Part shown: piece after piece, positions 988 through 30,781 of the stretch
How the letters are laid out: each line of letters starts with the position of its first letter
Position numbering within the stretch: the stretch's first letter is position 1
Virus record (IMG/VR): IMGVR_UViG_3300043446_004613
Coordinates: 124,001 to 188,000 of that record
Reading direction: 5' to 3' (one strand)
Length of the DNA stretch: 64,000 bases
DNA from: a virus
Position numbers and translations under genes: made by a program
The notes under the pieces: generated by a model
What the model was told of the DNA's origin: nothing
Seen by the model: only the letters and a program-made list of their open reading frames with translations
Database searches by the model: none

Positions 988-1635
988 GTGACTAAGAATC
1001 CGCATCTGAAGAAATTACTCGGCGAATCGGAACACGACGAGGTTCACCGCTACGCCGATGCTATGCAGCAAACGCCGCAGAACGGACGCGAAGCATACCC
1101 AGATCAGCCTGAGCTTGCCTCTGCGTTTGATCGGCTGCATTTGCAGGATAAGTCGTTGGACGAACTGCGCGACATGGTTGCCAATCAAGCGCTAAACGGC
1201 TTTGAGCTTGAGGTCGTAAACAACGAGATCGAGTTTTTGAGCGGACTCTCTGAAAATCTCGAAGATCAGCAGAATATGCCCGCACGTCCAAAAGACGAGA
1301 CGCAGGACGACACGCCGATCAAGCCGAAAAGTAACAAGGCGGCCAGCTTCGGAAACGTCAACGTGGAACTGGCTCCGAGCGTGCGGGAATTGATCGGTCT
1401 TTGGAAGCGCGGCGAGCACATGGCAGTTGCCGCCCGCTTGATGTTCACGCCAGCGAGCTATGTCGATTTCATTGCGTTATCTTTTACCATTGGTCAAGCT
1501 GGTGCAATGGAATTGGCTGGTTTACTGGATGAACTTTCAGATACCGAAAATATGCGACCGCCGTCCACCCCGCCAGAGTACAAAGAATTGCTTCAAAAAG
1601 TCGCAGGAGCAAACGCAGAGGAAAACGTTATATGA
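988..1635 (+). CDS. tagged candidate internal capsid protein, 215 aa
   Basis: The N-terminus is MTKNPHLKKLLGESE, with an L-G-E site after residue 13 that fits gp21-type prohead protease cleavage. The middle is acidic and low in complexity. The C-terminal half (from about residue 112, NVNVELAPSVRELIGLWKRG) looks folded and helical. The GTG start at 988 is supported by the 4-nt spacing from a GTAGTTA heptamer. It overlaps the next gene by 4 nt, and two more tagged proteins follow in the same operon just upstream of the protease gene. I do not recognise the family; the internal-protein role is inferred from tag and position. Confidence 0.6.
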   Translation: MTKNPHLKKLLGESEHDEVHRYADAMQQTPQNGREAYPDQPELASAFDRLHLQDKSLDELRDMVANQALNGFELEVVNNEIEFLSGLSENLEDQQNMPARPKDETQDDTPIKPKSNKAASFGNVNVELAPSVRELIGLWKRGEHMAVAARLMFTPASYVDFIALSFTIGQAGAMELAGLLDELSDTENMRPPSTPPEYKELLQKVAGANAEENVI

Positions 1636-2399
1636 GCAGCAACCCCCTTTTAGCCCGCGCCCTTGGTGAATCAACCGGCGATGTCGTGCCGGTTCTCGCC
1701 AATGTACCGCGCAGCACGCAACGCAGTCGTCTTGAGCGCCTGCGCCAGCGCCGTGATCCAGAAGGTATTGAATCCAAAAATGAAAGCCATCGGCGCGACA
1801 TCTCGCGCCTGATCGGTGAATCTGAAACCGATGAGCAGCAAAAGCGCAGCGATAGCGTTATCCCGGACGAAGCAGAGGAGATTGATAAGAGCGCCTACAC
1901 TGTAGGCAAGCCGATTGATCCGCCCAAGAAAGTCGTGCAGGAACCGTCGCATCCAACAGCTGATAAGGAGAAGTACATTACTCCGGCATCTGCTTTGACT
2001 GCTCCCGATGCGACACCGCAGGCCACGCAGCCGCTAGACGCTTCACAGGTACCGATGCCCGGCGCATCCGGGCCTCAGCGATTTAGCGCATCCGACCTTG
2101 AAAAAGCCCCGGCAGCCCCAGCAGCCGGAAAAACGACAGCTGAAATCGATCCGCTGTCTGTACTACTTGGTCATGGTCGGGTACCGCGCCCTGCGCCCGA
2201 AATGCAAACGTTCCAGCAGGCAGGCAACATCAGCACTGAAGAAGCCCAGCGCATGGTTGGCGTACAGCCGATGCTTGCCGAGGAGGCCAAATCTCGAGCA
2301 GCAGCGGCGCTTCAACAGGGCGGCGTACCGATGCCTGAACCGAGCGCGCCAACAGACGGAAAGCGCGTTTTGGAAGCTTTCCGTCGTTTTGTCGTATGA
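1632..2399 (+). CDS. Pro/Ala-rich protein with two tag-like sites, 255 aa
   Basis: Starts MSSNPLLARALGEST, with an LGE site at residue 13. A second copy of the pattern, SRLIGESETDE, occurs near residue 60. The first 70 residues may therefore be two joined tags, or a targeting region cleaved twice. The rest is rich in Pro, Ala, Gln and Glu and probably disordered. It is coupled to its neighbours by ATGA overlaps on both sides. No known family is recognised. Confidence 0.55.
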   Translation: MSSNPLLARALGESTGDVVPVLANVPRSTQRSRLERLRQRRDPEGIESKNESHRRDISRLIGESETDEQQKRSDSVIPDEAEEIDKSAYTVGKPIDPPKKVVQEPSHPTADKEKYITPASALTAPDATPQATQPLDASQVPMPGASGPQRFSASDLEKAPAAPAAGKTTAEIDPLSVLLGHGRVPRPAPEMQTFQQAGNISTEEAQRMVGVQPMLAEEAKSRAAAALQQGGVPMPEPSAPTDGKRVLEAFRRFVV

Positions 2400-2911
2400 A
2401 AGCCGATGTCATCGCGTTTAAGCTGCTAGAGGCTGACGGCGAATACGTACCAGAAGGGTATGAGTTGCTGGACACGGTTGACGTTGGCGACTACACGCTG
2501 AAGCTGTGGCAGGGTGAAGGGCACGTTCGCGGCGTTGCCGTTAAATTTTACGAAATTAGCCTGAACGCTCACGGGCGCTCTTTTGCTCCTGAAGAGCAAA
2601 ATAAGAAGTTTGCGACAACGATGGCGATGCCTGCGCGTAGCGTTATGCGCGTTGTAGGTGAATGGATCAAACGCTACGGCGGTCTGTACATTGGTAGCTA
2701 TTCTCCGCGAAAGCTGGCTACATACCACCACATGTTTAAGCGCTATCTTCCCCAGCTGAAGGTCAGCGATCCGTTCGCTCCGTTCGATGAGTGCGAAGGT
2801 AAACCCGAGTATTTCACCGTAAACAGCATGCCATCAGCTTTAGAACGTGCGCTCGCTGAAGCAATAAAACGCTACGATGCGCAAGTTAAACGCGGGCAAG
2901 ATCAGCGATGA
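2396..2911 (+). CDS. tagged candidate internal capsid protein, 171 aa
   Basis: Starts MKADVIAFKLLEADGE, with an L-L-E site at residue 12. After the tag it looks like a globular mixed alpha/beta protein with several Tyr/Trp residues (YTLKLWQGEGHVRG, RYGGLYIGSYSPRK). The start overlaps the previous stop as ATGA. It is third in a row of tagged genes ahead of the prohead protease. The family is unknown. Confidence 0.55.
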   Translation: MKADVIAFKLLEADGEYVPEGYELLDTVDVGDYTLKLWQGEGHVRGVAVKFYEISLNAHGRSFAPEEQNKKFATTMAMPARSVMRVVGEWIKRYGGLYIGSYSPRKLATYHHMFKRYLPQLKVSDPFAPFDECEGKPEYFTVNSMPSALERALAEAIKRYDAQVKRGQDQR

Positions 2912-3059
2912 TAACCGTAACGAGTATGCGGAACAGATCGTTGAACAGGTTATCGTAGACTCTGACCTGCTTTCCACCGATGACGTTGAAACAATCGACA
3001 CGTTTAACCATGTTTTAGCCAAGCTGCTGGCGTATGCGTCAGGCAGTCCGGTAGCTTGA
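2877..3059 (+). CDS. small acidic protein, 60 aa
   Basis: MRKLNAGKISDDNRNEYAEQ and following residues, mostly helical and acidic. It overlaps the end of the previous gene by 35 nt in another frame and ends 19 nt before the next start. Its length and position suit a real small gene, but no family is recognised and there is no clear ribosome binding site. Confidence 0.45.
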   Translation: MRKLNAGKISDDNRNEYAEQIVEQVIVDSDLLSTDDVETIDTFNHVLAKLLAYASGSPVA

Positions 3060-3078
3060 CCTATAACCACTTAAATCC

Positions 3079-3369
3079 ATGTCTGATCTGCCATTACCCA
3101 ATCTCGGTGTGCCTGTTGTAAACAACGAGCTACACGTGCGCATACACCGCGAGATGTTTTCGGATTTCTTCACCATAATGCTGGATGACAATTCTAGCGA
3201 AGAGCTTGAAATTGAACCTCTTAGGGAATGGTTTAAGGTGCGTGGCGCGAACATGGATTCGATTGATAAGGTGCTCGACCATGTCTGGAATTTTGGTTAC
3301 GCGGAAGTCCTGATCTCCAACCCAAAAACACCTAAGCACCTGCGCCTTCCGCATGAGCCGGACATTTAG
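3079..3369 (+). CDS. hypothetical protein, 96 aa
   Basis: MSDLPLPNLGVPVVNNELHV and following residues. A compact acidic protein with one helical stretch (EPLREWFKVRGANMDSIDKV) and no membrane segment. It is the last gene before a 114-nt gap leading to the protease. That gap contains the inverted repeat ATTGGA-AG-TCCAAT and nothing else I can name. Function unknown. Confidence 0.5.
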   Translation: MSDLPLPNLGVPVVNNELHVRIHREMFSDFFTIMLDDNSSEELEIEPLREWFKVRGANMDSIDKVLDHVWNFGYAEVLISNPKTPKHLRLPHEPDI

Positions 3370-3483
3370 TAGACACCGGGCACCTGCAAGCCTCTGTAGA
3401 CGTAAGTGACGTAGCAAAAGTCTATTGGAAGTCCAATCGTATTAGGTGCGTTAAGCCAGTGTAAACGGTCGCTAGGGAGAAGT

Positions 3484-5178
3484 ATGCGTTGTTACGTACG
3501 CAGAATTTCTTGTATGCGACAATACCTTATTGAAGGCATAACGGGCGCGTTTCCGTTCATTGTGGATCGGAACAAAACTCCGGTAACGGAGAGTCGCCCC
3601 AACGGCGGTAGCTTCACCCGCATCCCCGGACGTTTCAGCGTTTGCGACTGTGTCAACGGCAACAATCGCCGTTACAGCAAGCGTGTCTGGGAAAAGAACC
3701 TCACTGAAGGCTCAGTCCTACAGGAGTCCATCAAGCGCAACGCTGCTTTCGGCCTCCTCGAACACCCCAAAGACGGTATTGTCACTCTTCTCTCTCCGAT
3801 TTCCCACCACGTTACCAAAGCAGAAATGGTTGAAACCCGCGATGCCTCCGGCAAGCCGGTTTATGAAGTCTGCGGCGAAATCGTCATTTTCAATACCGAT
3901 GAAGGCCGCAAGTTGACCGCTTTGATCGAAGGCGGCTACAACCCGCTCGTCTCCAGCCGTGGTTACGGCTCTCTGAACAAAGCCAGCGACGGTGTTGATG
4001 AAGTCGCTGAGGACTTTGTCTGCGAAGGTTGGGACGTGGTAATCAAGCCGAGCTTTGAGCAGGCTGAACTGACTCCGGCCCGCAGTACTTCTACGGCCAC
4101 TATGGCCACCCCCGTCGCTCCTAACCCGCAAGCTGAATCTAAACAGCCTGCGCCCGCTACAGTGACGGAAACCAAACAAAATTTGAAGGAGTCGACGCCT
4201 TCAACTGGTGCGGATAAACCGACCAGCGTAACCACAAACAAAAATAACACTATGGAACTGAACACATTGAAGTCGCAGATCGAGAGCCTCCGCTCCGCTG
4301 ATGCTGCGAAACCCAATCGGTTCGCTGAGTCCATGACGAAAGTCGAGGAACTGCACCAGCAGGTTGCTGAGTGGGCCGCTGCCGATCCCAAACGTTCTTG
4401 GGAAGCGCAGAAGCTCCACAAGTCCCTCGACTCCATCGGCGAAGGACTCACTGCGACCATTAACCGTCCCGCTGACACCGCTCGTAAGCTCAGCGAGAAC
4501 AACAACAAGCTGCTTCGCGTTATCGACGCCGTCGCCAAGACTGCCGTCACTTACAAGAAGAAGCTCGGCGAAGCCCTCAAATCCGACGGCAGCCGCGTCA
4601 AGATGATCGAAGAACTGACCCGTCGCGGTCAGGGCTGGCAGCGTATCGCCGAGAGCCGTAAGCAAAAGCTCATGGTTCAGGAAAAAGATTTCGATACCGC
4701 GTGCGAAGCGCTCGACATCATGGCCCAGCGCTATCACGAAGACGTGACCGAACTCGGTCGTCGCCTCATCGTCCTTGAATTCAAGGAGAAGGCCCAGACG
4801 CCTGAAATCCAGAAGTCGCTCAAAGAAGCGACCCGTCTGCGTCACATCGTTACCATCCGCGAACGGCTGGAAGGTAAAAAGAAACCCGTCTCTGAAACCT
4901 CTGCGGAAGGCAAGCAGCCCAAAGAAGGCGAGCAGCCTAGCCACGAAGGCATCAAGGACGAGAAGCAAAAGGGCGCTGGCAGCCCTGATGCTGGCAAGGT
5001 TGCTGAAGAACCCGGCAAGGTGAAAACCGAGTCGAAGGCTCCCGGCGACGCGGCCAAAAAGACTCAGACCGTTTCTGAGTCACAGGTGCTGAAGACGGAT
5101 CGCGCTGACATCAGTGTCCGCTCGGTCAATGAATCGGTGGAACTGGTGCGTCGGCTTAGCACCGCACCCGCCAAGTAA
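3484..5178 (+). CDS. prohead protease (T4 gp21-like) fused to a scaffold domain
   Basis: A protein of 564 aa. Residues about 15-200 match the gp21/S78-type prohead protease: VNGNNRRYSKRVW, then FGLLEHPKDG with the likely catalytic His94, then NPLVSSRGYGSL with the likely nucleophile Ser157 or Ser158. Residues about 200-255 are a Pro/Thr linker. From residue 257 on the protein is charged and helical, as expected of a gp22-like core scaffold. gp21 and gp22 are separate genes in T4, so the fusion is notable. Its own start holds an L-I-E site (MRQYLIEG, Met11). A Shine-Dalgarno-like AGGGAG precedes ATG 3484; ATG 3514 is the alternative. It acts in the prohead, cutting scaffold, capsid and internal proteins at (L/I)xE. 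Confidence 0.85.
   Translation: MRCYVRRISCMRQYLIEGITGAFPFIVDRNKTPVTESRPNGGSFTRIPGRFSVCDCVNGNNRRYSKRVWEKNLTEGSVLQESIKRNAAFGLLEHPKDGIVTLLSPISHHVTKAEMVETRDASGKPVYEVCGEIVIFNTDEGRKLTALIEGGYNPLVSSRGYGSLNKASDGVDEVAEDFVCEGWDVVIKPSFEQAELTPARSTSTATMATPVAPNPQAESKQPAPATVTETKQNLKESTPSTGADKPTSVTTNKNNTMELNTLKSQIESLRSADAAKPNRFAESMTKVEELHQQVAEWAAADPKRSWEAQKLHKSLDSIGEGLTATINRPADTARKLSENNNKLLRVIDAVAKTAVTYKKKLGEALKSDGSRVKMIEELTRRGQGWQRIAESRKQKLMVQEKDFDTACEALDIMAQRYHEDVTELGRRLIVLEFKEKAQTPEIQKSLKEATRLRHIVTIRERLEGKKKPVSETSAEGKQPKEGEQPSHEGIKDEKQKGAGSPDAGKVAEEPGKVKTESKAPGDAAKKTQTVSESQVLKTDRADISVRSVNESVELVRRLSTAPAK
4252..5178 (+). CDS. possible separate scaffold protein from an internal start
   Basis: Met257 of the protease-scaffold gene is preceded by an A/C-rich, unstructured stretch (ACAAACAAAAATAACACT) much like the leader before the capsid gene. 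Initiation here would make a 308-aa scaffold lacking the protease domain, as lambda Nu3 is made inside gene C. The product is helical and rich in Lys, Glu and Ala (MELNTLKSQIESLRSADAAK at its start), typical of scaffolds. Free scaffold in excess over protease is what assembly would need. The internal start is inferred, not proven. Confidence 0.45.
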   Translation: MELNTLKSQIESLRSADAAKPNRFAESMTKVEELHQQVAEWAAADPKRSWEAQKLHKSLDSIGEGLTATINRPADTARKLSENNNKLLRVIDAVAKTAVTYKKKLGEALKSDGSRVKMIEELTRRGQGWQRIAESRKQKLMVQEKDFDTACEALDIMAQRYHEDVTELGRRLIVLEFKEKAQTPEIQKSLKEATRLRHIVTIRERLEGKKKPVSETSAEGKQPKEGEQPSHEGIKDEKQKGAGSPDAGKVAEEPGKVKTESKAPGDAAKKTQTVSESQVLKTDRADISVRSVNESVELVRRLSTAPAK

Positions 5179-5215
5179 CAAGTAAGCCATCCAACAACAA
5201 AACTAACGAACTACT
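5179..5215 (+). promoter_or_regulatory. CAA-rich leader of the major capsid gene
   Basis: The 37 nt before the capsid ATG are rich in A and C (CCAACAACAAAACTAACG) with no Shine-Dalgarno sequence. Similar leaders precede the internal scaffold start at 4252 and the gene ending at 51207 on the minus strand. Unstructured CAA-rich leaders can aid ribosome loading; that role here is inferred. Confidence 0.4.
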
Positions 5216-6679
5216 ATGGTAATTCTCACTGAAAGTGGAAGACCGGTATTGGCGTCTGATGGCGGGCACATCTCCCGTTTCATGGACGTCTTGGAGTGGG
5301 GCTATCGCCTCGCTGAAACATCGTTGGGCATCCCTGAAAAGAACTCACGCGGCCTTTGGGAAGCGCGGGGCTGGAAGGAATTTGTCCAACACATGCCTGA
5401 GCACAAGCGTCCTTTGGCCGCAATCATGCTCGAAAACTGCCGCAGCCGTTTTGGCCGCCTCGATGAAGTGACTCGTACCACGTCACTCGGCACGTTCGAT
5501 AAATGGATTTTCCCCATTATCGCCAACATGTCCGAGAACGACGTGATCGACCAGCTTGTCGCGCTCCAGCCGATGGCAGGCCCGGTGAGCCAGATCGTCT
5601 ACATGGACATCGTCACTGGCCGTCGCAAAGGCCGTACTCCCGCAGGTGCCCCGATGTGGCGTGCCTTGCAGGGCGCGGTTGACCGCGACGACGACGGCGA
5701 TGAAGTCGTTCAGGACGAAACCGGCACTGCGTCGAGCGGTGGCGTGTTCATCCTCGAATGGACGCCTATCCGTCCCGGTACCGTCACAGGTTCCTACAGC
5801 ACCGTGAACTTTGCTGACGACGGCAACGGTCAGATCATCAACGTAGCCACCAACGCCGCGATCGGTACAGTCGTGTACCAAGGCACTGGCGCTGGCACCG
5901 TGACGATCGCCGGGGCAGCCAACACGGACTACTCCGTGACCTACGCGTTCAATTCTGAAGGCAACCTCGCCATTCAGGATTACGAAATGAAGCTTTCCAG
6001 CACTCCGGTGACTGCGAAAGTGATGAAGCTCAAGACCCTGTGGTCTGAGGAAGCCGACCAGAACCTTCAGGCGATGTACAACATCAAGGCCGAAAGCGTT
6101 CTGCTCAACGCGCTCACCAACGCCCTCCAGTATCAGAAACACCGCCAAGTGATCTTCGATCTCCGCGCCAAAGCTGATGCCGGTTTCGTTGTCTGGGATG
6201 CGATCGCTCCGTCTGGTGTCAACTACCAGACCCACAAGTTCAGCATCATCGACGCGTTCGAGACTGCATCGAACTTCATCTACGGCGCTACGAACATGGT
6301 TGCCGGTAACTGGTTGCTGCTTGGCCTCCAAGCCGCTACCGTGGTTGCCACGCTGCCGCAGTTCGTGCCGAAGAACAACCGCGTGCAGATGCAGGGTATC
6401 ACCTACATCGGCGATCTTGGCAACAAGAAGGTCTTCGCTGACCCGCACTATCCGACTAACGAGTTCCTCGTCGGTCACAAGGGTGACCAGTTCCTGACCA
6501 CCGGCTACGTGTTGGCCGAATATCAGAAGCTGTACACCACCCCTGACGTGGTGCTGCCGGACTTCATCCATCAACGTGGCTTTGCGACGAGCTTCGCCCG
6601 GAAGATGGTTAACAGCAAGATGTACTGCCGTGGCCTCGTTCAGAATAGTCCAACGGCGTTCGGCCAAACGATTGGCTAA
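5216..6679 (+). CDS. major capsid protein (T4 gp23-like, HK97 fold)
   Basis: A protein of 487 aa. The stretch from about residue 98 (WIFPIIANMSENDVIDQ, then VALQPMAGPVSQIVYMD) is the conserved gp23 block. A Gly/Thr-rich insertion near residues 180-250 looks like a surface domain. The N-terminal 60 residues include VLEWGYRLAETSLG, where L-A-E could be the protease cut that removes the gp23 delta peptide. It lies just after protease-scaffold and ends in a strong terminator, so it can be expressed at very high level. It forms the capsid shell. Confidence 0.9.
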   Translation: MVILTESGRPVLASDGGHISRFMDVLEWGYRLAETSLGIPEKNSRGLWEARGWKEFVQHMPEHKRPLAAIMLENCRSRFGRLDEVTRTTSLGTFDKWIFPIIANMSENDVIDQLVALQPMAGPVSQIVYMDIVTGRRKGRTPAGAPMWRALQGAVDRDDDGDEVVQDETGTASSGGVFILEWTPIRPGTVTGSYSTVNFADDGNGQIINVATNAAIGTVVYQGTGAGTVTIAGAANTDYSVTYAFNSEGNLAIQDYEMKLSSTPVTAKVMKLKTLWSEEADQNLQAMYNIKAESVLLNALTNALQYQKHRQVIFDLRAKADAGFVVWDAIAPSGVNYQTHKFSIIDAFETASNFIYGATNMVAGNWLLLGLQAATVVATLPQFVPKNNRVQMQGITYIGDLGNKKVFADPHYPTNEFLVGHKGDQFLTTGYVLAEYQKLYTTPDVVLPDFIHQRGFATSFARKMVNSKMYCRGLVQNSPTAFGQTIG

Positions 6680-6698
6680 GAGTAAGCTGAAAATTCAT

Positions 6699-6727: not shown

Positions 6728-6763
6728 GTTGCTTTATTTTGCTAACTAGCTAAAAGTAAGCTG

Positions 6764-6835: not shown

Positions 6836-6849
6836 ATAGTTACATAAAA

Positions 6850-6855: not shown

Positions 6856-6890
6856 GTTGACTTTCAGCGCCGGGCGCTTACTCTTACACC

Positions 6891-7268
6891 ATGCTATTTG
6901 AACCGACGGCCACCAACATCACCAAGCGCTACTTTGTAGACCGCGATGGCGTGCCGACATCCCGGATGCAGAACCGGCCCGGCATGGGCCACTTTGAGAT
7001 CGCGCAGTCTGTTGTAAATCTTGATCCGAATACTGATCTGTACCAGCAGATGTTTGCTTTGAAATACCTGCGCGTAGGCGAAGATGCGGCGAGCAATACG
7101 CTGTACGTCGACGCTCCTGTCAGCAGCGCGGATAAGCTCACTACGCGTCAACGGCGCTGGCTAAAGGACAAACAAGCGGAAGGCTGGAAAGTCGAGTTCA
7201 ACAATCGCTCGTTTGTTGAGGCCCGCGACACCCGCGCCACGCAGGTTGTAAAGCAGCTGCTCGGGTAG
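6891..7268 (+). CDS. hypothetical protein with C-terminal tag-like end, 125 aa
   Basis: MLFEPTATNITKRYFVDRDG at the start, and a C-terminus ending ATQVVKQLLG just before the stop. The central part is soluble, with a basic helix (LTTRQRRWLKDKQAEGWKVE). The last ten residues follow the same V-V-x-x-L-L pattern that other proteins here carry at their N-terminus. It is the first gene after the capsid terminator. Family unknown. Confidence 0.55.
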   Translation: MLFEPTATNITKRYFVDRDGVPTSRMQNRPGMGHFEIAQSVVNLDPNTDLYQQMFALKYLRVGEDAASNTLYVDAPVSSADKLTTRQRRWLKDKQAEGWKVEFNNRSFVEARDTRATQVVKQLLG

Positions 7269-7271
7269 TTA
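7265..7271 (+). promoter_or_regulatory. GTAGTTA heptamer
   Basis: Four nt before ATG 7276, overlapping the TAG stop of the 6891 gene. Confidence 0.5.
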
Positions 7272-7275: not shown

Positions 7276-7518
7276 ATGCTGCATAAACGTGCCAATCAAA
7301 TCCGTACCCGGATCACGCAAATTGAACGTGAATTAGACAACGACCACGATGGTCAGCCTACCGCGCCGCTGACTCGCGAACTCGAAGACCTGCGTAACGA
7401 ACTCGCTTTCATTGAGGCCGACATCCCGCGTCGCACAAATGGTCGTTTTTTGGAAGGCCAGAACCCGCATAATACGACTCCTGCTGGGGCGCTGGTTTCC
7501 AAGATGCTTGATGCCTGA
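7276..7518 (+). CDS. small coiled-coil protein with C-terminal tag, 80 aa
   Basis: Residues 1-50 form a charged helix with a coiled-coil look (NQIRTRITQIERELDNDHDG). The protein ends AGALVSKMLDA, a C-terminal version of the shared tag. The start is fixed by the 4-nt gap to the heptamer. It ends 5 nt before the next gene. Function unknown; a packaged internal protein is possible. Confidence 0.5.
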   Translation: MLHKRANQIRTRITQIERELDNDHDGQPTAPLTRELEDLRNELAFIEADIPRRTNGRFLEGQNPHNTTPAGALVSKMLDA

Positions 7519-7523: not shown

Positions 7524-7563
7524 ATGCTCTCCGCCGCTTTCATTGTAAACCGCCTGCTTGAAA
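7524..7563 (+). repeat. tag-coding repeat, copy 1
   Basis: Matches 8003-8042 at 38 of 40 positions, with the first 26 nt identical. It encodes MLSAAFIV(N/K)RLLE. Confidence 0.9.
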
Positions 7564-8027
7564 CCAGCGTCAATGACCATGTTCTGGTAAAAAGCAAAGG
7601 CTTGGTGCTGCTTAAAATGTCCATGATTGCGCAGTACTTGCTTGATAAGAATCGTTACCCTGATCTGCCTGAAGCTGCCGTGCAGGCTGAAATCAAAAGT
7701 GCCCGTTTGACGGCGGCTCAAGTCGACAACATTCTGGATGACGACGACGAAAAAGCGGAACGATCCGAAGCCAAAGCAGACGGTACAATCGATCAGTACT
7801 GGCAATCCAAGTGTGAAGATATTGCTGATAGCGTTGCTAACGACATTCGCAGAAGTGCCGGAATTAAAGAACCGACGTGGCAACAATGGAAGCAGGGCAA
7901 CGCTCACTATTTTAAGACTCCGTCCGGTGAAATCCTCACCGCGCAAACCGCAGAAGAGTACTGGGCAATTCAGGCCAGAATCGGAAAACAACGCGTTACT
8001 TTATGCTCTCCGCCGCTTTCATTGTAA
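7524..8027 (+). CDS. tagged candidate internal capsid protein, 167 aa
   Basis: Starts MLSAAFIVNRLLETS, with an L-L-E site at residue 13. The body is acidic with a DDDDEKAERSEAK stretch and a C-terminal part with Trp residues (EPTWQQWKQGNAHYFKT). Its first 40 nt are almost identical to those of the next gene, although the rest of the two proteins is unrelated. It overlaps that gene by 25 nt in another frame, so its last residues (CSPPLSL) are simply the next gene's tag read out of frame. Confidence 0.6.
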   Translation: MLSAAFIVNRLLETSVNDHVLVKSKGLVLLKMSMIAQYLLDKNRYPDLPEAAVQAEIKSARLTAAQVDNILDDDDEKAERSEAKADGTIDQYWQSKCEDIADSVANDIRRSAGIKEPTWQQWKQGNAHYFKTPSGEILTAQTAEEYWAIQARIGKQRVTLCSPPLSL

Positions 8028-8042
8028 AGCGCCTGCTCGAAA
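8003..8042 (+). repeat. tag-coding repeat, copy 2
   Basis: Second copy of the 40-nt element at 7524-7563. Similarity stops right after the LLE codons. Confidence 0.9.
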
Positions 8043-8500: not shown

Positions 8501-8904
8501 GCGGCTGCAACCAACCATCAGCTTTACCCGGAAGCCAGCGCACTGTTCCATGTGGAACAAGTGTAGACGGTCGCATCTTCCTATGCTCCAACTGCCACAT
8601 GAGCGAGTCCGGCCCGCGTAAAGCCAGCCGAATCGTAGAATCTCTCTTGGAGGATGAAGGTGAACTTAACGCGCAAAGCTACGTCGATGAATTACCTCGC
8701 ATCATCGACGACTGGCATGATCTTGCCGGTGATGACTGGATGGAATGGATGGAGATAGTGCGTGAGATCGATGGCGACCTGCCTGAAGAAGAACAGATGA
8801 CCAGCAAGGAAGCCGATCGGCTGGCTGGCCAGATTTATCGGGCGCACAACGGTGAACTACAGGCAGCGCGGGCAGCTTTTGGATTGGAAACCGGTGCCAG
8901 CTAA
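8497..8904 (+). CDS. zinc-finger-like N-terminus joined to a tagged acidic protein
   Basis: The full frame is 135 aa. Residues 1-35 hold Cys4, Cys19 and a CSNC pair, like half of a zinc ribbon. ATG 8599 (MSESGPRKASRIVESLLEDE) gives a protein with the standard tag and an L-L-E site at residue 18 of that form. There is no stop between the parts, so this is either a fusion or a gene starting at 8599 with a long shadow upstream. The ATGA overlap at 8497 favours translation of the whole frame. The C-terminal part is helical and acidic. Confidence 0.5.
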   Translation: MSGCNQPSALPGSQRTVPCGTSVDGRIFLCSNCHMSESGPRKASRIVESLLEDEGELNAQSYVDELPRIIDDWHDLAGDDWMEWMEIVREIDGDLPEEEQMTSKEADRLAGQIYRAHNGELQAARAAFGLETGAS

Positions 8905-8927: not shown

Positions 8928-8934
8928 GTAGTTA
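8928..8934 (+). promoter_or_regulatory. GTAGTTA heptamer
   Basis: Four nt before ATG 8939, in the 34-nt gap between two genes, so here it does not overlap a coding region. Confidence 0.5.
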
Positions 8935-8938: not shown

Positions 8939-9157
8939 ATGAACGCTACAATTCGTAAAGTCATCGGCGAGATGCAAGAGCCGCACCCGGAAACGGATAT
9001 GTCTAACCCCGAGGAAAAGCGTGAGGTCGTGCTGGCCCGTAAGATCAAGCACTGCATTGGCGCACGTAAGGGCACCGCCGAAGATTACCGGGAAGCTCTC
9101 AAGCAGGCCGAGCGTTACGCTGACGAAATTATCACGATGCACGGACAGCAGCCTTGA
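8939..9157 (+). CDS. small tagged helical protein, 72 aa
   Basis: MNATIRKVIGEMQEPHPE at the start, with an I-G-E site at residue 11. The rest is a charged helical protein (REVVLARKIKHCIGARKGTA). It ends 4 nt before the next gene. Family unknown. Confidence 0.5.
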   Translation: MNATIRKVIGEMQEPHPETDMSNPEEKREVVLARKIKHCIGARKGTAEDYREALKQAERYADEIITMHGQQP

Positions 9158-9161: not shown

Positions 9162-9821
9162 ATGCCACAGTCCAAAGCCCATAGCGTAGTTTCGCACCTG
9201 CTTGAAGCGATGGAGGTTCGGCTGGACGGTTACGATTACCCGGTGGCTGTATACTTGATTGATCTGAAGGATAAGCAGACCGTCAAAAGCGGGTACGCTT
9301 ATTTCTCCCGGCCCTACCGTGACTGGCCGATCCCGGAGTCTTTCACGTACTTGATCGGCACAGAGAAACCTGCCCGGAAGTCCATCGCGATCCAAGCGAT
9401 TATCAACTTTGTAGACGGCCCGGCGACTGCTGCCAAGGTTACCGACGTGGACGAAGACTATAAGGCGTTTCTGCGTGACTATTACAAGCCATCGCAGCTG
9501 GACGACTACAAGTACTTTTCCAACTGTGCGCTGCAATGGGCGAAGCAGAACAAAATCATGCGTCCGGGGTACATAATGCAAGACGAACTGGACAGTTACA
9601 CGTACCCTATTCCAGAGCTACAGGCGCTTGTCAAATGGAGTTCTGACAACTGGCGCATGTCCGACCACTTTGGTTTGTTCCAAGGCAACTCTGGCGCTAC
9701 CCATGTCAGACTCACGCTCTACATCAGTGTAGACTACGCCGGTATACCGGACGAGCCGGATGCCGAAGCAGTCGAACGGTTGCTTCCTTACTTGGGGAAT
9801 GAAGGAGGGCGCAATGGCTGA
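9162..9821 (+). CDS. tagged candidate internal capsid protein, 219 aa
   Basis: The ATG at 9162 gives MPQSKAHSVVSHLLEAMEVR, with an L-L-E site at residue 15. The body appears globular with many aromatic residues (YAYFSRPYRDWPIPESFTYL). The frame is open upstream to 9021, but that stretch overlaps the previous gene and lacks a tag, so 9162 is preferred. It overlaps the next gene by 8 nt. Family unknown. Confidence 0.6.
   Translation: MPQSKAHSVVSHLLEAMEVRLDGYDYPVAVYLIDLKDKQTVKSGYAYFSRPYRDWPIPESFTYLIGTEKPARKSIAIQAIINFVDGPATAAKVTDVDEDYKAFLRDYYKPSQLDDYKYFSNCALQWAKQNKIMRPGYIMQDELDSYTYPIPELQALVKWSSDNWRMSDHFGLFQGNSGATHVRLTLYISVDYAGIPDEPDAEAVERLLPYLGNEGGRNG
9802..9808 (+). promoter_or_regulatory. strong Shine-Dalgarno site (AAGGAGG)
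   Basis: AAGGAGG five nt before ATG 9814. It shows that the host ribosome uses classical Shine-Dalgarno pairing, which makes its absence at many other starts meaningful. Confidence 0.8.
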
Positions 9822-13870: not shown

Positions 13871-13877
13871 GTAGTTA
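13871..13877 (+). promoter_or_regulatory. GTAGTTA heptamer
   Basis: Nine nt before ATG 13887, in a true intergenic region. Confidence 0.5.
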
Positions 13878-13886: not shown

Positions 13887-14294
13887 ATGCCTGCAAAATC
13901 TGAAAAACAGCGTAAGTTCCTAAACTGGAAATTTGGCCACAAATGGGTCAAGAACCATCACTTTGACAATCCCGGCAAACTGCCGAAGAAAGTCAAAAAG
14001 GAAGAGGCTTTGACGGCCCGTGCTATGTTTGGTCGCCTACAAGAGCGCGACGACGCGCCAAGCTTGCCCTTGGGCAAAGCCGGTCATGCGTATTCGCGCA
14101 TGGATAAGAGCGACATTATGGAGCAGCCCGGCGGTACGTCCAAGAAGTGGCACAAAAGCGTCGCGTTGCGCAAAGAGGTGACCAACCAGCAGGACGTCAA
14201 AGGCTTTCCGAGCATGGACAAGGTCGGCAAGGTGCCGCACGCCATGAAGGAAGCACTGACGTCAGCGCAGGTTGTCAGCGCGATGCTGGACTAA
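13887..14294 (+). CDS. basic small protein with C-terminal tag, 135 aa
   Basis: The N-terminus MPAKSEKQRKFLNWKFGHKW is strongly basic and resembles short MPAKS-type phage proteins of unknown role. The middle is Lys/Gly-rich. It ends ALTSAQVVSAMLD, a C-terminal version of the shared tag. A basic, tagged protein would suit packing with DNA inside the head. Its last 4 nt overlap the converging gene. Confidence 0.55.
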   Translation: MPAKSEKQRKFLNWKFGHKWVKNHHFDNPGKLPKKVKKEEALTARAMFGRLQERDDAPSLPLGKAGHAYSRMDKSDIMEQPGGTSKKWHKSVALRKEVTNQQDVKGFPSMDKVGKVPHAMKEALTSAQVVSAMLD

Positions 14295-19873: not shown

Positions 19874-19880
19874 GTAGTTA
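19874..19880 (+). promoter_or_regulatory. GTAGTTA heptamer
   Basis: Six nt before ATG 19887; divergent from the gp46 motif. Confidence 0.5.
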
Positions 19881-19886: not shown

Positions 19887-20663
19887 ATGATACTCGCGCA
19901 CGCTATTGTTGACGTACTGCTCGAAGCCAGCCAACCGTCGGCTGGTGACGCAAAAGGTGTCTATGTTTTTGGTCGAGGATTACCGGCAAGTGGTTATCCA
20001 GCGCCCACCTTTGAAAAGCTTATTGAGCAATTTCGCGAATACGGTTTCATCGACGCAAACGTAAAAGACAGCGCTAATTTGATGAGCCAGCTGGTAAAGA
20101 CCGGGTACACTTTTATATTTAAGCGCAGCCAGAACGACATTGAAGTGATTGGACGTATTCCAGTTGAAACGTCTGCTGCGAAATACGTAGAGCAGTATCT
20201 CGGAATGGAAGATAAAACAGTCGTTCAGTATCGGCGCGATGTGTTTGCTACGCCTACAAAGATGAGCGCTGAAAAGATTTTCTCCAAAGAGGAATCTCAA
20301 GGGATGAAGCCCCTCAACAGTTCAACGCGGATTGGCATCGGCTACGAGACGGCAAAAGAAGGCATCAAAATCGTCGAAGTCCATCAGAACGGCCCAGCAG
20401 CGCAAGCTGGTCTTAAAGCGGGGATGATTCTGACTTACGCTTGGATTGATTTTGGTCAAGGTCATGGTTCTGACTGGTACAAGCTAACCTCTGAGGAAAG
20501 CCTTGCAGTAGTGCTAAGCGCAGCCCAGCCCGGAAAACCGTTGATGCTCAAAATTCTTGTTGGAGGTACCTACCAAAATTTTCCGGTAATCCCTGTCGCA
20601 AACCAGCAGGGAGGCCCACAGAAACCGCCAGCAGCCGGTTCAACCTCCGGTTCTAAACCTTGA
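19887..20663 (+). CDS. tagged PDZ-domain protein, 258 aa
   Basis: Starts MILAHAIVDVLLEASQ, with an L-L-E site at residue 13. Residues about 145-225 form a PDZ domain: IGIGYETAKEGIKIVEVHQN, then GPAAQAGLKAGMILTYAWID. PDZ domains bind C-terminal peptides and are usually part of periplasmic proteases, yet no protease domain is present. The tag suggests packaging in the head, so it might act in the host after entry or in assembly. The C-terminus is a Pro/Gly/Ser tail. It ends 1 nt before the next ATG. Confidence 0.65.
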   Translation: MILAHAIVDVLLEASQPSAGDAKGVYVFGRGLPASGYPAPTFEKLIEQFREYGFIDANVKDSANLMSQLVKTGYTFIFKRSQNDIEVIGRIPVETSAAKYVEQYLGMEDKTVVQYRRDVFATPTKMSAEKIFSKEESQGMKPLNSSTRIGIGYETAKEGIKIVEVHQNGPAAQAGLKAGMILTYAWIDFGQGHGSDWYKLTSEESLAVVLSAAQPGKPLMLKILVGGTYQNFPVIPVANQQGGPQKPPAAGSTSGSKP

Positions 20664-23903: not shown

Positions 23904-24212
23904 TCAGCCCTCATCCACAGCCACAAAACTGCGTTCAAGCAGTTCGAGAACATGGCTGGATAGGCCGACATCGTACAACGCGATTGACGCATCGTCGATT
24001 TCGATTGCGTCGATCATGCGCTCAACGGTGTTACTGTTGGCAAAAATCATGGAACATTCGGAAGCGCTCAGTTCGATGCCATCTTCTGCGACTGCCGCTT
24101 CATCGTTTGGATAAATCACGGCTTTTGACGTTTTAACCACGTCAACGTCGCTCTGGATGTGCTCAGAGCTAAGGTCTTCCAACAACTGTACAAGTGCGTT
24201 TGGTTTTTTCAT
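23904..24212 (-). CDS. small tagged acidic protein, 102 aa
   Basis: MKKPNALVQLLEDLSSEHIQ, with an L-L-E site at residue 12. The body is strongly acidic (YPNDEAAVAEDGIELSASEC) and ends LLERSFVAVDEG. ATG 24212 is chosen over an upstream in-frame GTG at 24239 because it places the tag at the very start. It is the clearest tagged gene on the minus strand. Function unknown. Confidence 0.5.
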   Translation of the reverse strand: MKKPNALVQLLEDLSSEHIQSDVDVVKTSKAVIYPNDEAAVAEDGIELSASECSMIFANSNTVERMIDAIEIDDASIALYDVGLSSHVLELLERSFVAVDEG

Positions 24213-24787: not shown

Positions 24788-25131
24788 TAATGGACGCGCT
24801 AAAGCGGACTATCGACCAGTCGATTAAGACACGACTGGCGAACCCAGCGCAACGTAAACAGGTTGTAGACACCGTGCTGGCAGGATTTGAGCATCTGCGT
24901 AAAAATCCAGTGCCCGATTTGCCCGAGCGCACGCAAAAACTACGCCAGCGCGTTGAAAAGCTGGCGCAGGAAGTAGCGGTAGAGTTTTCCGGTGATAAGC
25001 TCGTAGTTAAGGTGGCCGGGGCGTCAGAGTCGTTGTTGGTAGAGCTTAGACGCGGCACAAACTGGTATGCGCCGTGGGAAGAGATTGACGTGATTGTTCT
25101 GGCTGCGATATTAAAAGACCCAAGCAAGTAG
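24784..25131 (+). CDS. hypothetical protein, 115 aa
   Basis: MIMDALKRTIDQSIKTRLAN and on; the first 65 residues are helical and basic, and the rest holds beta strands (DKLVVKVAGASESLLVELRR) and YAPWEEIDVIVLAAIL. It overlaps the previous gene by 4 nt. ATG 24790 is an equally good start. It lies in the neck/tail operon, so a minor assembly role is plausible. Confidence 0.5.
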   Translation: MIMDALKRTIDQSIKTRLANPAQRKQVVDTVLAGFEHLRKNPVPDLPERTQKLRQRVEKLAQEVAVEFSGDKLVVKVAGASESLLVELRRGTNWYAPWEEIDVIVLAAILKDPSK

Positions 25132-25134
25132 TTA
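25128..25134 (+). promoter_or_regulatory. GTAGTTA heptamer
   Basis: Six nt before ATG 25141, overlapping the TAG stop of the previous gene. Confidence 0.5.
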
Positions 25135-25140
25135 AGTCAA

Positions 25141-25404
25141 ATGAAAGACCTCAAAAAGATCATTTCGGAATCCGTCGTGAACGGCGGCAAGAACTATGTG
25201 AGCGAAGCCGTGAACCAGATTCTCGGCGAAGACGTCTCTAGCGGCCAAACGGTCGCAGTTGTTGACGATCCGATCAGCGGTATGACCGGTGCCAAAGGCA
25301 AGGTCAAATCCATCAGCGACTCCAATCCCGGATTCGCGGACGTGGAGCTTGAAAACGGCACCACGGTGAAGATGCAGACTTCGCTGCTCGTTCCCGTCAA
25401 GTAA
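25141..25404 (+). CDS. tagged KOW/SH3-like protein, 87 aa
   Basis: MKDLKKIISESVVNGGKNYV, with an I-S-E site at residue 10 and an L-G-E site at residue 30 (QILGED). Residues about 35-87 form a small beta-barrel of the KOW/SH3 type (TVAVVDDPISGMTGAKGKVK, then VELENGTTVKMQTSLLVPV). Cutting at LGE would release exactly the barrel. It ends in a strong terminator, so it is probably made in quantity. The role is unknown. Confidence 0.55.
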   Translation: MKDLKKIISESVVNGGKNYVSEAVNQILGEDVSSGQTVAVVDDPISGMTGAKGKVKSISDSNPGFADVELENGTTVKMQTSLLVPVK

Positions 25405-25422
25405 CACCGTGAGTTATTTTGC

Positions 25423-25467
25423 CAGCGAGCACGGCGGCTAAAAAGGCTGCCGTGCTCGCTGTTTCTT
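25423..25467 (+). terminator. Rho-independent terminator
   Basis: A 13-bp stem CAGCGAGCACGGC / GCCGTGCTCGCTG with an A-rich loop, followed by GTTTCTTT. It begins 18 nt after the stop of the KOW-like gene. Confidence 0.85.
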
Positions 25468-25476
25468 TACAGACCC

Positions 25477-25483
25477 GTAATTA
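25477..25483 (+). promoter_or_regulatory. GTAATTA, variant of the GTAGTTA heptamer
   Basis: Five nt before GTG 25489 and directly after the terminator, which is where a new promoter would be expected. Confidence 0.45.
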
Positions 25484-25488
25484 AGTGT

Positions 25489-26562: not shown

Positions 26563-26609
26563 ACACCCGCGAGTACGTGGCGTTGCGTTAAGTGCGCTGA
26601 ATGATACTG

Positions 26610-26616
26610 GTAGTTA
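26610..26616 (+). promoter_or_regulatory. GTAGTTA heptamer, first of a tandem pair
   Basis: In the 108-nt gap before the sheath gene, 39 nt upstream of a second copy. A short GTG frame follows it, but that stops after 7 codons. Confidence 0.5.
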
Positions 26617-26648
26617 AAAGTGTGAGCGCGGTTTTAATAGATTAGCGC

Positions 26649-26655
26649 GTAGTTA
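26649..26655 (+). promoter_or_regulatory. GTAGTTA heptamer, second of a tandem pair
   Basis: Fifteen nt before the sheath ATG. Doubling of the motif before one of the most abundant virion proteins fits a promoter better than a translation signal. Confidence 0.55.
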
Positions 26656-26670
26656 AGACAGCAAAAGATT

Positions 26671-28968
26671 ATGACGATTACACCAAAAACCTTTCCGGGG
26701 GTTTACACGACTATTGTCGACAAATCCTTTTTTACTCCGGCGACCAGCCGCTTCAAACCCGGTTTGCTCGGTGTCGCCTCAAAAGGGCCGTTTGACGTGC
26801 CAACCCCGGTGCAGTCACTCAAGGACTTTGTCAACGCGTTTGGCCGTCCGATCACGACGACCTACTCGACGGACGCGACCAGCCGCATCACGACCCCAGA
26901 CGGTAACGGCTACTTTCTCGCTGACGCCGTGGACGCGATCACGGATTACACCGACGCGATCACGATCGTGCGCATCGGTAACCGCTACACGGAACTTCAA
27001 CCTTCCGACGCAATTTCCGGTGCAAACAACTACACGGTGTACAGCCCGTCAAACGCACCTCGGATTCAGCAGCTGATCGTGGATAACGACGGCCCGGTAT
27101 ATCTGCGTCTTACGCAGCCCGGCCTCCACTCGACAGTCAATGTTCTGGCTATCTCAGCCACAGGTACAACCATTGCGCTTGACCCGAGCAGCGACGGTAT
27201 GGCTGACGCCTACGGCCCCAATGCGACGATCTCGTACAGTCTTACGGACAAGGCAGCCAATAAAGCGGAAGGCGTTCTCTACGCTTACACCTACGGCACC
27301 GATGCAACTGACTATGCAGACGCGCTATTCACGTCTGTCGGTTCCATCTCTGGCAACAAGAATCAGTTCCAGTTCTACTGCGCATCTGATGCGGACAACA
27401 TTGCTGTCGGTGATGTTTTCAAGATCAAGGAAACGAACAAAGACACGTCGTACGAAGTGCGTGTTCGCGGTTTGCTCATTGACTACCTGAACAACAACGC
27501 TGGTACGGTCTATCTTGAAAAGACGGACATGCCGCAGATCGGCTATCAAGCGCTGCCGTTGCAAGACAACTACTCCAATGCCCAGCTGTACAAGCCCACC
27601 GGCAAGCTTCCGGCTCTTCGCCTCAAGGCGACCACGGAAGGCACATGGGCCAACGGCGCAAATTCCTCGCAAGGTCTTTACCTGCGCGTACGCCCCGGTT
27701 CTGACGGCGGTACCAAGAAGCTTGAAGTCTACTGGGATTCAGCGCTTGTTGAAACCCACGACAATATCACAGACGATCCGGCTGATACCGTCAATTTCTG
27801 GGAAGCCCGCTTGGCCAAAGGCAAGAGCCAGTTCGTTTACCTCGACGAAGATGCAGGCGTTACCGACTTGATTACCGGAGATTGGACTTGCGCCAACACG
27901 GTTCATCCGTGGGATGCCCGTTTCTTCGGCACTACCGCAACTCCCGGCCTGCCGGTTCCGATGCCGCTCGGTGCAACCAACGCCGGTATCTTGAACGTCG
28001 CAGTGAATACCATCGAAGACACTGGCGGTCAGTTTATCAATGGTTACAACGGCGAAAATCCGAACGATTCCGACTGGATTGGTACGCTCGACCCGACGAC
28101 AGACACCATGACCGGTATCCGTGCTTTTGAAGACACCGACACGGTTGAAATCAACTATCTCGCCGCGCCGATGGACAACATCAGCTTTGCGGTGATGGAA
28201 CAGATGGGCCGTACCTGCGCCAAGGTCAATGCGATGGCCGTTTGCGACGTGCCTGCTCAGTACAACGCTCGCGAAGCGATTGACTGGCACAATGGCAAGC
28301 TGCCGACTCAGGACGGTACCCGGATCGACAACCGCAACGTTGCGGTCTATTGGAATTGGTTCATGCGCACCAATAGCTGGGCTGAAACAAAGTTTGTGCC
28401 TCCGACGGTTGGATTGCTGGCACGTACCGGCTACACCTTCAACGCGGACAAGCCGTGGTATGCTGTCGCTGGCGAAACTCGCGGCTATCTCCAGATGGCT
28501 GAAAAGGTCGCGTTTGACCGCGTGTCTGATGACACCAAGCAGGCGATGTACGGTAACGGCAACAGCATTAACCCGATCCTCAAGATCAAGGGCAACCACT
28601 ACCTGTACGGTGAACGCACAATGCAACGTGCCGAAAGCAAGCTTACGGCAGTTCATAACGTTGTTCTCGTGAACTGGGTTGTAACCGGTATGGCGAACGT
28701 CGCCCGCCGCTTCGTGTTTGATCCGAACGACGCTGAATTGCTGATCCAGCTGAAGCTGGCGTTCACCGAGTTCCTTGACCGCATCGCTAACGATCGCGGC
28801 ATCGAACAGTACAATCTGGTCATGGATGATCGGAATAACACGGCTGAGACTCGCAATAACCGCGAAGTTTTAGTCGACTTGGAGATTATTCCGACCGACG
28901 TGGCGGAACGTATCTACATCAACGCGACTGTTCGCGAAAGCGGCGCAGTCCTGAACCGTTTAGTCTAA
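26671..28968 (+). CDS. tail sheath protein (gp18-like)
   Basis: 765 aa. The N-terminus TPKTFPGVYTTIVDKSFFTP and GLLGVASKGPFDVPTPVQSL is the standard sheath opening. The C-terminal domain (RRFVFDPNDAELLIQLKLAF to EIIPTDVAERIYINATVRES) is the conserved handshake region that links sheath subunits. Middle residues form the variable outer domains. It contracts around the tube during injection. The tube gene follows after 4 nt. Confidence 0.9.
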   Translation: MTITPKTFPGVYTTIVDKSFFTPATSRFKPGLLGVASKGPFDVPTPVQSLKDFVNAFGRPITTTYSTDATSRITTPDGNGYFLADAVDAITDYTDAITIVRIGNRYTELQPSDAISGANNYTVYSPSNAPRIQQLIVDNDGPVYLRLTQPGLHSTVNVLAISATGTTIALDPSSDGMADAYGPNATISYSLTDKAANKAEGVLYAYTYGTDATDYADALFTSVGSISGNKNQFQFYCASDADNIAVGDVFKIKETNKDTSYEVRVRGLLIDYLNNNAGTVYLEKTDMPQIGYQALPLQDNYSNAQLYKPTGKLPALRLKATTEGTWANGANSSQGLYLRVRPGSDGGTKKLEVYWDSALVETHDNITDDPADTVNFWEARLAKGKSQFVYLDEDAGVTDLITGDWTCANTVHPWDARFFGTTATPGLPVPMPLGATNAGILNVAVNTIEDTGGQFINGYNGENPNDSDWIGTLDPTTDTMTGIRAFEDTDTVEINYLAAPMDNISFAVMEQMGRTCAKVNAMAVCDVPAQYNAREAIDWHNGKLPTQDGTRIDNRNVAVYWNWFMRTNSWAETKFVPPTVGLLARTGYTFNADKPWYAVAGETRGYLQMAEKVAFDRVSDDTKQAMYGNGNSINPILKIKGNHYLYGERTMQRAESKLTAVHNVVLVNWVVTGMANVARRFVFDPNDAELLIQLKLAFTEFLDRIANDRGIEQYNLVMDDRNNTAETRNNREVLVDLEIIPTDVAERIYINATVRESGAVLNRLV

Positions 28969-28972
28969 TCTT

Positions 28973-29614
28973 ATGTCAAAGATGAACTTCAACAATACGT
29001 TCGGCGCTATTTCAGACGCCAACGCTATTGACCTGCAACGCAGCGACCTGTGGAAAGTGGACATTGTCTTGCCACAGGTGCTGAACGCGAACTGGAACGA
29101 CAACGTGCAGTTCTTGCTCGAAAAGTTTCCGTTCCCGACCCGCGAACGCGAAATGATCGAGGTCAAGTACATGCAGCAGACCAACTTCATTATCGGGAAG
29201 GACACTCCGACAAACGCCATCGAAATTCCCGTCCGCTACGCTTTCGGTGTCAAAGTCGTCGAAGCGCTCGAAAAATGGAATTGGCTCGTTGCCAACCCGA
29301 TCACAGGTGGTATCGGTCTGACCTCGCAATGCAAAGCCAAAGGCAGCATGCGCTGGGTTGTACCGAACATGCAGAACCAAGTGAACGCCCTGAGCAACAA
29401 CGTTGCTGCCGGGGAGAACACGATGGACGACGGCTTGGTTTACAACCTTGAGGGCTGCATCATCAAAGGACTCAAATACTCAGATGCTGACATGACGCAG
29501 AGCGGTTATGTGAACATCATGTTCAATCTCCAGATCGATCGCTACTATCCGGCTGGCAAGTCTCGCAACGGCGCTCTGGATGACACAATCGTCAATCCTG
29601 TTGTTGCGCGGTGA
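28973..29614 (+). CDS. tail tube protein (gp19-like)
   Basis: 213 aa. SDLWKVDIVLPQVLNANW at the start and the beta-rich core (FIIGKDTPTNAIEIPVRYAF, then GCIIKGLKYSDADMTQSGYV) fit the gp19 tube fold. It directly follows the sheath, as in T4. It stacks as hexameric rings to form the inner channel. It overlaps the next gene by 4 nt (GTGA). Confidence 0.85.
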   Translation: MSKMNFNNTFGAISDANAIDLQRSDLWKVDIVLPQVLNANWNDNVQFLLEKFPFPTREREMIEVKYMQQTNFIIGKDTPTNAIEIPVRYAFGVKVVEALEKWNWLVANPITGGIGLTSQCKAKGSMRWVVPNMQNQVNALSNNVAAGENTMDDGLVYNLEGCIIKGLKYSDADMTQSGYVNIMFNLQIDRYYPAGKSRNGALDDTIVNPVVAR

Positions 29615-30012
29615 AAATTGACGTATACAGCGAAGCGGTACTTCGGGTGCTCCCCGAAGTACCTGATCTCCCTCTGGAGGCACCGCCTGCGGAGGGCTTC
29701 GATCTTGTCGATGTCTGCATCTGTCCGGCCTGCGGCGGCCAAGACGCCGCTGTGAAGAAAGTGGAGGATGCGGAAGTTGCTAAATGCCCACAGTGCCAGT
29801 GTGAATTCTCGCCACGCTTGGAAGCTGTATCGGCGCAAGTCATTCGCCGTATTGGTGAGCACCGTGCCCGGCGCATGAGCCGCTTCCTTGAGTCATTGCC
29901 GTTGAATCCACCGCCGGGTGTAAATCCAAAAGATTACTCACTTTTCCGTAAAATCGTCGATACTGAGCCTTTGGCTGTTGAAAACCCTGAATCCGAACTT
30001 GAAAATGAATAA
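29611..30012 (+). CDS. zinc-ribbon protein, 133 aa
   Basis: GTG start; MKIDVYSEAVLRVLPEVPDL, then two Cys pairs (ICPACGGQ near residue 38 and KCPQCQCEF near residue 58) that form a zinc ribbon. The C-terminal part is a basic helix (AQVIRRIGEHRARRMSRFLE) and an acidic tail. The position after the tube suggests a helper of tail assembly, or a DNA-binding protein read from the same message. Family unknown. Confidence 0.5.
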   Translation: MKIDVYSEAVLRVLPEVPDLPLEAPPAEGFDLVDVCICPACGGQDAAVKKVEDAEVAKCPQCQCEFSPRLEAVSAQVIRRIGEHRARRMSRFLESLPLNPPPGVNPKDYSLFRKIVDTEPLAVENPESELENE

Positions 30013-30781
30013 ACTTATCGAAGCTGCTGTTGTTGAACCGCAGTACAGCAAAACAGAGCGTGAATTTGATCCTCGTCATCTCATGAGCAAGCTAGATGCT
30101 ATACATCGCCGCTTTGTAGATGAGCGCGTAGCTGGCTTTACGACTCCTGAAGGTGTCACTCACCCACCCTGTTCACGTGAAGAGGCTGAAGCTCGTTGGG
30201 CTAAAGCGGAGCAGGCCTTTATGAACGCGCTTTCAGGAAACGTTGCACCTGAGCACCGTGAAAACAGTAAAAGTTTGCAGCATAAGCTGGGACTTACCCG
30301 GCCTAAGTTAACAGGCGCGATTTACCGCGATGATCCAACCGTTCCAGACACGGAACCAGAAACTGACTGGGAAAGCTACGAAAAATCGTGGCATAAGCAG
30401 GAAAGTAACGTGAGCGCTGTCGTGCGTACGCTTGTAACCGAAGCGATCGATATGCCTACGCCCGAGTGGGAAATAGATAAACATTTTTTTGATCAGGCAC
30501 TGCACAGTATCCGCAGCCGCTTTGTAGATGAGCGCGTATCTGGTTTTATGACGCCTGACGGTGTCAAACATCCGCCGGTTTCGCGTGAAGAGGCGGAAGC
30601 TCGTTGGGCTAAAGCAGAGAATGTTTTCAAAAAAGCGCTTATGAATCCATCGCCAAAAGCGGCGAAAAGCTTGAAACTTGGACGTAAACTCAGCCCGTAC
30701 GAGCGCGGCATGCGCGATGAGCCTTCGCTACGTCGCGGCGAGTCAAAATCCAGTTCTATCGTGCGGAAGATGATTTCTTGA
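30005..30781 (+). CDS. tagged protein with a tandem duplicated domain, 258 aa
   Basis: ATG 30005 gives MNKLIEAAVVEPQ, with an L-I-E site at residue 6. Residues 30-77 and 166-213 are two copies of one domain (each with RFVDERV(A/S)GF, then THPP or KHPP, SREEAEARWAKAE). The end, SSSIVRKMIS, is like the C-terminal tags of other genes, so this protein may carry tags at both ends. The frame is open upstream to a TTG at 29978, but ATG 30005 overlaps the previous stop in the usual way. Function unknown. Confidence 0.6.
   Translation: MNKLIEAAVVEPQYSKTEREFDPRHLMSKLDAIHRRFVDERVAGFTTPEGVTHPPCSREEAEARWAKAEQAFMNALSGNVAPEHRENSKSLQHKLGLTRPKLTGAIYRDDPTVPDTEPETDWESYEKSWHKQESNVSAVVRTLVTEAIDMPTPEWEIDKHFFDQALHSIRSRFVDERVSGFMTPDGVKHPPVSREEAEARWAKAENVFKKALMNPSPKAAKSLKLGRKLSPYERGMRDEPSLRRGESKSSSIVRKMIS
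30092..30235 (+). repeat. duplicated protein domain, copy 1
   Basis: Codes for residues 30-77; the DNA around the RFVDER and SREEAEARWAKAE codons is also closely similar to copy 2, so the duplication is fairly recent. Confidence 0.8.
30500..30643 (+). repeat. duplicated protein domain, copy 2
   Basis: Codes for residues 166-213 of the same protein, in the same frame, 408 nt after copy 1. Confidence 0.8.

Follow-up and report, generated by a model that had tools for sequence, protein, structure and literature searches.

A portable helical tag resembling capsid-targeting sequences in the proteins of an uncultured giant T4-like phage

The internal proteins IPI, IPII and IPIII of phage T4 carry a short N-terminal capsid-targeting sequence (CTS) that ends in (L/I)xE, their bodies are unrelated and variable, and the phage encodes the gp21-type protease. 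In ipII and ipIII the peptide reads MKTYQEFIAE/A, where the slash marks the known (or, below, candidate) cut. The residues responsible for targeting are separate from those for processing, and Asp instead of Glu allows targeting while processing is inhibited; Alt and gp21 of T4 are also processed C-terminally (PMC9026906). In phage P1 an N-terminal signal in the first 30 residues of DarB loads a reporter into heads, and a sequence common to the Dar proteins was not found (PMC9024508). In SPN3US and phiKZ the head proteins and those ejected are processed by a protease that recognises a short motif with E as its last residue and prefers Ser at P1'; it also removes its own C-terminal propeptide (PMC10052503).

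The phage described here shares with T4 the arrangement of short N-terminal peptides ending in (L/I)xE, unrelated bodies and a gp21-type protease. The consensus differs, and a model of the tag found no match in the T4 region that holds ipI to ipIII. Such peptides occur on three IP proteins in T4, whereas about 29 tagged genes per genome are predicted here. Unlike the T4 CTS, the tag also occurs in C-terminal and internal copies, and its P1' residue is mostly acidic. It further differs from the P1 Dar signals in being a shared sequence, and from the A-x-E sites and mostly long propeptides of SPN3US and phiKZ in being a short tag common to many proteins. The system appears to work like the T4 CTS, with a different sequence that is not confined to N-termini. 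We assign a probability of about 0.6 to the reading that the tag combines a helix for capsid targeting with its own cut site, in a much-expanded T4-like system.

The source phage is an uncultured giant relative of T4. The window, a stretch of 64,000 nucleotides, covers bases 124001-188000 of its 211 kb IMG/VR record, and genes are named by their window position preceded by w. Its capsid protein is at most ca. 30% identical to any entry of the phage collection, with SP-15 and LIS04 among the matches, and a DNA search of that collection with the first 25 kb gave no match; by these comparisons the clade has no close relative in the collection searched. A relative is encoded at 37 IMG/VR loci, most of them close and several on long contigs. 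Seven genomes including the source phage (G000, the source, and G002, G004, G005, G007, G009 and G012) were read in stretches. Genes were called with a simple home-made codon and start model, so that some start choices may be wrong. An Rfam scan and a tRNA scan were both empty.

The first-pass annotation had proposed that a dozen unrelated small genes between positions 988 and 30781 begin with a short amphipathic helix ending in (L/I)xE and encode head-packaged proteins. All twelve open reading frames were present and open with the N-termini given, and the gene listed at 23904 is real, but it lies on the minus strand and starts at 24212, 23904 being its end. Bare (L/I)xE occurred in the first 22 residues of 20 of the 39 genes called in this region (5.8 ± 1.7 after shuffling). 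It was also raised in a T4 region (22 of 62 genes against 13.0 ± 2.7) and slightly in SP-15; because of this mild enrichment elsewhere it is unsafe as a sole marker, and it was dropped as too common. The more specific consensus A-x-Q-[IL]-V-x-x-L-L-E performed differently. As a regular expression it gave 21 N-terminal matches across the source genome against 1.7 in shuffled sequences, and 22, 14, 10 and 6 matches in four relatives against 2.1, 1.6, 0.9 and 0.9. The genome-wide profile search that had been proposed as a check, run with a position weight matrix (PWM) trained on the other phages, returned 22 matches against 0.6. The tag is thus about tenfold or more above shuffles in the tag-rich phages (it is enriched at termini in five phages), and the regions sampled from T4, S-RIM2, SP-15 and AS-zj gave the model no match. 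The tag is found genome-wide, in about 29 of the 262 genes called in the source phage, and in related IMG/VR phages, an extent that the first-pass annotation understated. A few calls are likely false, for example tape-measure-like w14700, which scores weakly and has untagged orthologues. Few tags were found in G007 and G012 although both encode the protease, which counts against a capsid-targeting role.

Only part of the original dozen belongs to this tag class. Six genes on the plus strand scored between 12 and 26: w2396 (ADVIAFKLLE, 2396-2431, PWM 19.0), w7524 (MLSAAFIVNRLLE, 7524-7562, 25.5), w8003 (MLSAAFIVKRLLE, 8003-8041, 23.4), w8599 (ending in ASRIVESLLE, 8599-8652, 20.4), w9162 (MPQSKAHSVVSHLLE, 9162-9206, 11.8) and w19887 (MILAHAIVDVLLE, 19887-19925, 23.2). 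The final motif of w19887 is retained as LLE, MLE or FLE in three relatives. The tags at 7524-7562 and 8003-8041 are identical at 37 of 39 nucleotides between unrelated flanks, and the second reads as a recent, near-exact transplant of the first, or the reverse. This pair is the sole clear recent copy; a common origin of all tags by DNA copying was rejected, as mean tag identity is ca. 50% and the flanks are random.

Gene w1632 is borderline (PWM 7.4), and w988, w8939, w23904, w25141 and w30005 fall outside the class with scores below 5. The N-terminal helices of w988 (988-1026, plus strand, followed by LLGE, in a 215-aa protein) and w1632 (1632-1670, plus strand, followed by ALGE) belong to a head-module class, NPxLxRxLG. 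The E is mostly kept in the w988 relatives, the majority of which have LGE or VGE close to their start; the w1632 relatives conserve the helix and often lack the E (MGTG, MGRK, TGRI, ILGR). Gene w8939 starts with MNATIRKVIGE (8939-8971, plus strand), of the LGE type, which is retained in one relative, MNALIAQVLGE of G005. The minus-strand gene w23904 is a weak member (MKKPNALVQLLE, 24177-24212, PWM 4.2) in which the E is not fixed, the relatives having LLAE, LLQE or LIEE. Gene w25141 starts with MKDLKKIISE/S (25141-25170, plus strand) and has a second LGE site further downstream. Its relatives show ISES, IAEA, ITEA, INES, VAES, IQEA and IREA, a conserved [IV]xE/[SA] in which x varies freely; by conservation this is the best cleavage-site candidate, and it looks genuine. 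In w30005 (30005-30781, plus strand) a domain is tandemly duplicated, with a weak tag-like stretch behind each copy (SAVVRTLVTEA, and SSSIVRKMIS before the stop; PWM only 3.3 and 0.2). The underlying repeat is 125 nt long, 82% identical and spaced at 408 nt.

The folded bodies behind the tags share nothing, as had been claimed: no window-against-window match was listed. An acidic DPxxYIxxLP element, overlooked before, is partly shared behind some tags, with weak statistics. Most bodies gave no match in searches. Those that did include a ParE-like toxin (4.6e-13), a 2H phosphoesterase of the 2'-5' RNA ligase type (5e-12) that also matches Acb1 weakly, another protein with a weak 2H match, a phage lysozyme (6e-11) and, as previously suggested, a PDZ domain in w19887. 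These are accessory bodies of a type that phages inject, and they support the original interpretation as cargo. A tagged NUDIX-thymidylate kinase in G002 is not an obvious injected protein and counts against it. Among the genes of the source phage, 1 of 29 tagged and 52 of 233 untagged ones were found in at least four other phages, which makes the tagged genes the more often accessory ones; other genomes were less clear. In cyanophage homologues of two tagged bodies a CTS-like start was not seen. The AlphaFold model of w19887 has a helix at residues 4-14 and a linker, both at low confidence, followed by the folded body; in that of w2396 the tag is not helical, a further point against capsid targeting.

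The gp21-type protease that had been placed at 3484 was confirmed as an S77 prohead protease with a scaffold-like C-terminal region, encoded by a 554-aa open reading frame at 3514-5178 (plus strand). It matched PF03420 (E 1.5e-19, 67.1 bits against a cut-off of 27), the PHROG head maturation protease (1.9e-31) and the T4 gp21 structure 5jbl (E 2.3e-8). The His of its HPKDG aligns with an Ala in 5jbl that is His in wild-type T4 (LGELNH in gp21), and its SSRGYGS aligns with ASRGLGS; both positions are kept, and we take this His and Ser to be the catalytic residues. An alignment of 20 relatives revealed three conserved candidate cuts. LxE followed by G or D at residue 7, with x variable, is present in 20 of 20 and resembles LIE-9 of T4 gp21; LKE/S after residue 226, behind the protease domain, is present in most; and [VIL]xE/[SA] after residue 540 is followed by the tail SVELVRRLS. 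A conserved internal ATG (MELN) could start a separate scaffold product at 4252-5178 (plus strand), possibly as in other protease-scaffold fusions; since a clear Shine-Dalgarno sequence is absent, this start is inferred only. In herpesviruses the protease and scaffold share one open reading frame with an internal start and are cut apart and near the C-terminus. The likeness to this phage, with its candidate cuts and possible internal start, would be one of layout only. The gp23-like major capsid protein (5216-6679, plus strand) starts with MVILTE/S; an N-terminal cut there was rejected, as [IL]xE is retained in one subclade only.

Under the preferred reading, the amphipathic helix A-x-Q-[IL]-V-x-x-L-L would dock a protein inside the prohead as this grows late in infection, on the scaffold or the shell. 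At N-terminal copies the S77 protease would cut after the E, leaving the mature protein free in the head, and the freed cargo would be ejected with the DNA. C-terminal copies would dock their proteins by the same helix with the E unneeded, and copies between domains would be apparent fusions of two cargoes on one tag.

Such C-terminal and internal copies were absent from the first-pass annotation. In the window, on the plus strand, ATQVVKQLLG (7236-7265) ends the 6891-7268 frame with FVE/A just before it, AGALVSKMLDA (7483-7515) ends that of 7276-7518 and SAQVVSAMLD (14262-14291) ends that of 13887-14294. Orthologues of w6891 end in AVVSHLLQ and EIVEKLVA, and in the G007 counterpart of w13887 a similar tag is internal with more sequence behind it. 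Several bodies carry the tag at different places: in the middle in G000 and C-terminally in a relative (61328 against 121775 of G002; 85379 against 20975 of G005), or N-terminally in G000 (194157) and C-terminally in G002 (127879). One HAD-type protein carries the tag in G002 and lacks it in G000. These comparisons show the tag to be portable between the N-terminus, the C-terminus and positions between domains.

A multi-domain protein of 371 aa (G000:47323-48438, L004:9323-10438) has LGE/S and IGE/S linkers, then an acidic P..YI or P..FV element. Its last domain matches one tagged protein of G002, the match starting directly after the tag, and the boundary in G000 is FIGE/S. The protein reads like a chain and may be a cargo polyprotein.

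Portability also fits a more far-reaching reading, which we consider doubtful: the cargo helix would be position-independent and mimic the scaffold's C-terminal helix SVELVRRLS, which lies behind a conserved xE/S, so that any protein, or a chain cut by the protease, could join the prohead through a tag placed anywhere. The scaffold tail is in the top 0.24% of 9-mers under the tag model; as the C-termini of 6% of proteins score just as well, the similarity is only suggestive. Canonical [LI]xE was not enriched before C-terminal tags (2 against 2.6 expected); E[SA] occurred before 12 of 19 (3.3 expected, p = 1e-5), a feature picked post hoc.

In all seven phages many start codons are preceded by the sequence (G)TAGTTA, which begins ca. 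10-17 nt ahead of them and often uses the TAG stop codon of the preceding gene; for structural and tagged genes the distance is mostly exactly 10 nt. On the plus strand of the window it lies at 978-983 (before w988), 7266-7271, 8929-8934 (before w8939), 13872-13877, 19875-19880 and 25129-25134, and slightly further upstream of the sheath gene at 26650-26655. None of the 32 carriers in the source phage has a Shine-Dalgarno sequence. TAGTTA preceded 23 of 116 tagged and 77 of 1340 other genes (OR 4.1, p = 1e-6; OR 4.5, p = 3e-6 for proteins of at most 280 aa). Among the untagged genes with the element are those for the portal, baseplate wedge and neck; the carriers listed did not include DNA polymerase, ligase, DnaB helicase, UvsX or SSB. 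The co-occurrence independently supports expression of the tagged genes alongside virion genes, and we infer that this phase is late. TAGTTA may be a late promoter from which leaderless mRNA is made, or else a translation signal of a new kind; the T4 late promoter TATAAATA was not enriched upstream of tagged genes. In the G009 and G012 genomes another upstream motif was also enriched (TTGTTTACAAA / GTTTACAT).

TAGTTA marks tail as well as head genes, the tagged genes are scattered genome-wide on both strands, and one encodes the nucleotide enzyme mentioned above. The helix might accordingly dock on another late complex, such as the tail, a membrane or a host protein, instead of the prohead. 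We regard this as unlikely given that tagged genes in the window lie directly before the protease and directly after the capsid gene, that the arrangement resembles that of the T4 CTS, and that the E is unevenly distributed between termini.

Of the 68 N-terminal copies, 54 had this E behind the helix, but only 3 of the 22 C-terminal ones did (Fisher p = 5e-8), with the tag model scored without its last residue but built from N-terminal tags first chosen with E or D. Such a difference would follow if targeting resides in the helix and the E serves only as cut site. Some features count against cleavage: after LLE tags P1' is mostly D, N or E, unlike the T4 sites FIAE/A and FLTE/A, and in four of five full-length relatives of w2396 the E is a D (LLD or ILD). 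In general D, G or N can stand in for E, and some phages retain the shared acidic element after LLE. These observations would suit a head-targeting helix that stays uncut, with the E only capping it and the acidic stretch behind being part of the docking element. We find this quite improbable in view of the strong retention of E at N-termini only and of the L/IxE sites with free x in the protease and w25141. That the tags arise mostly by chance or from the usual make-up of N-termini, where short amphipathic stretches containing L/I and E are common and bare (L/I)xE is raised in T4 and SP-15 too, is highly improbable and refuted for the core set by the excess over shuffles, the absence from the four named-phage regions, the conservation in orthologues and the transplanted copy, but possible for w23904 and w30005.

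If the capsid-targeting reading is correct, a 10-residue signal reveals from sequence which genes of unknown role ride in the head and are probably injected. It would yield about 30 candidates per genome, including the ParE-like toxin and the 2H phosphoesterases, which resemble enzymes of anti-defence, and show how a cargo system of the T4 type can grow and shift between protein ends. Elsewhere in the source genome, a 376-aa protein (G000:87571-88701, L006:11571-12701) for which a PHROG search gave no match carries the tubulin/FtsZ-like signature GGGTGAGT.
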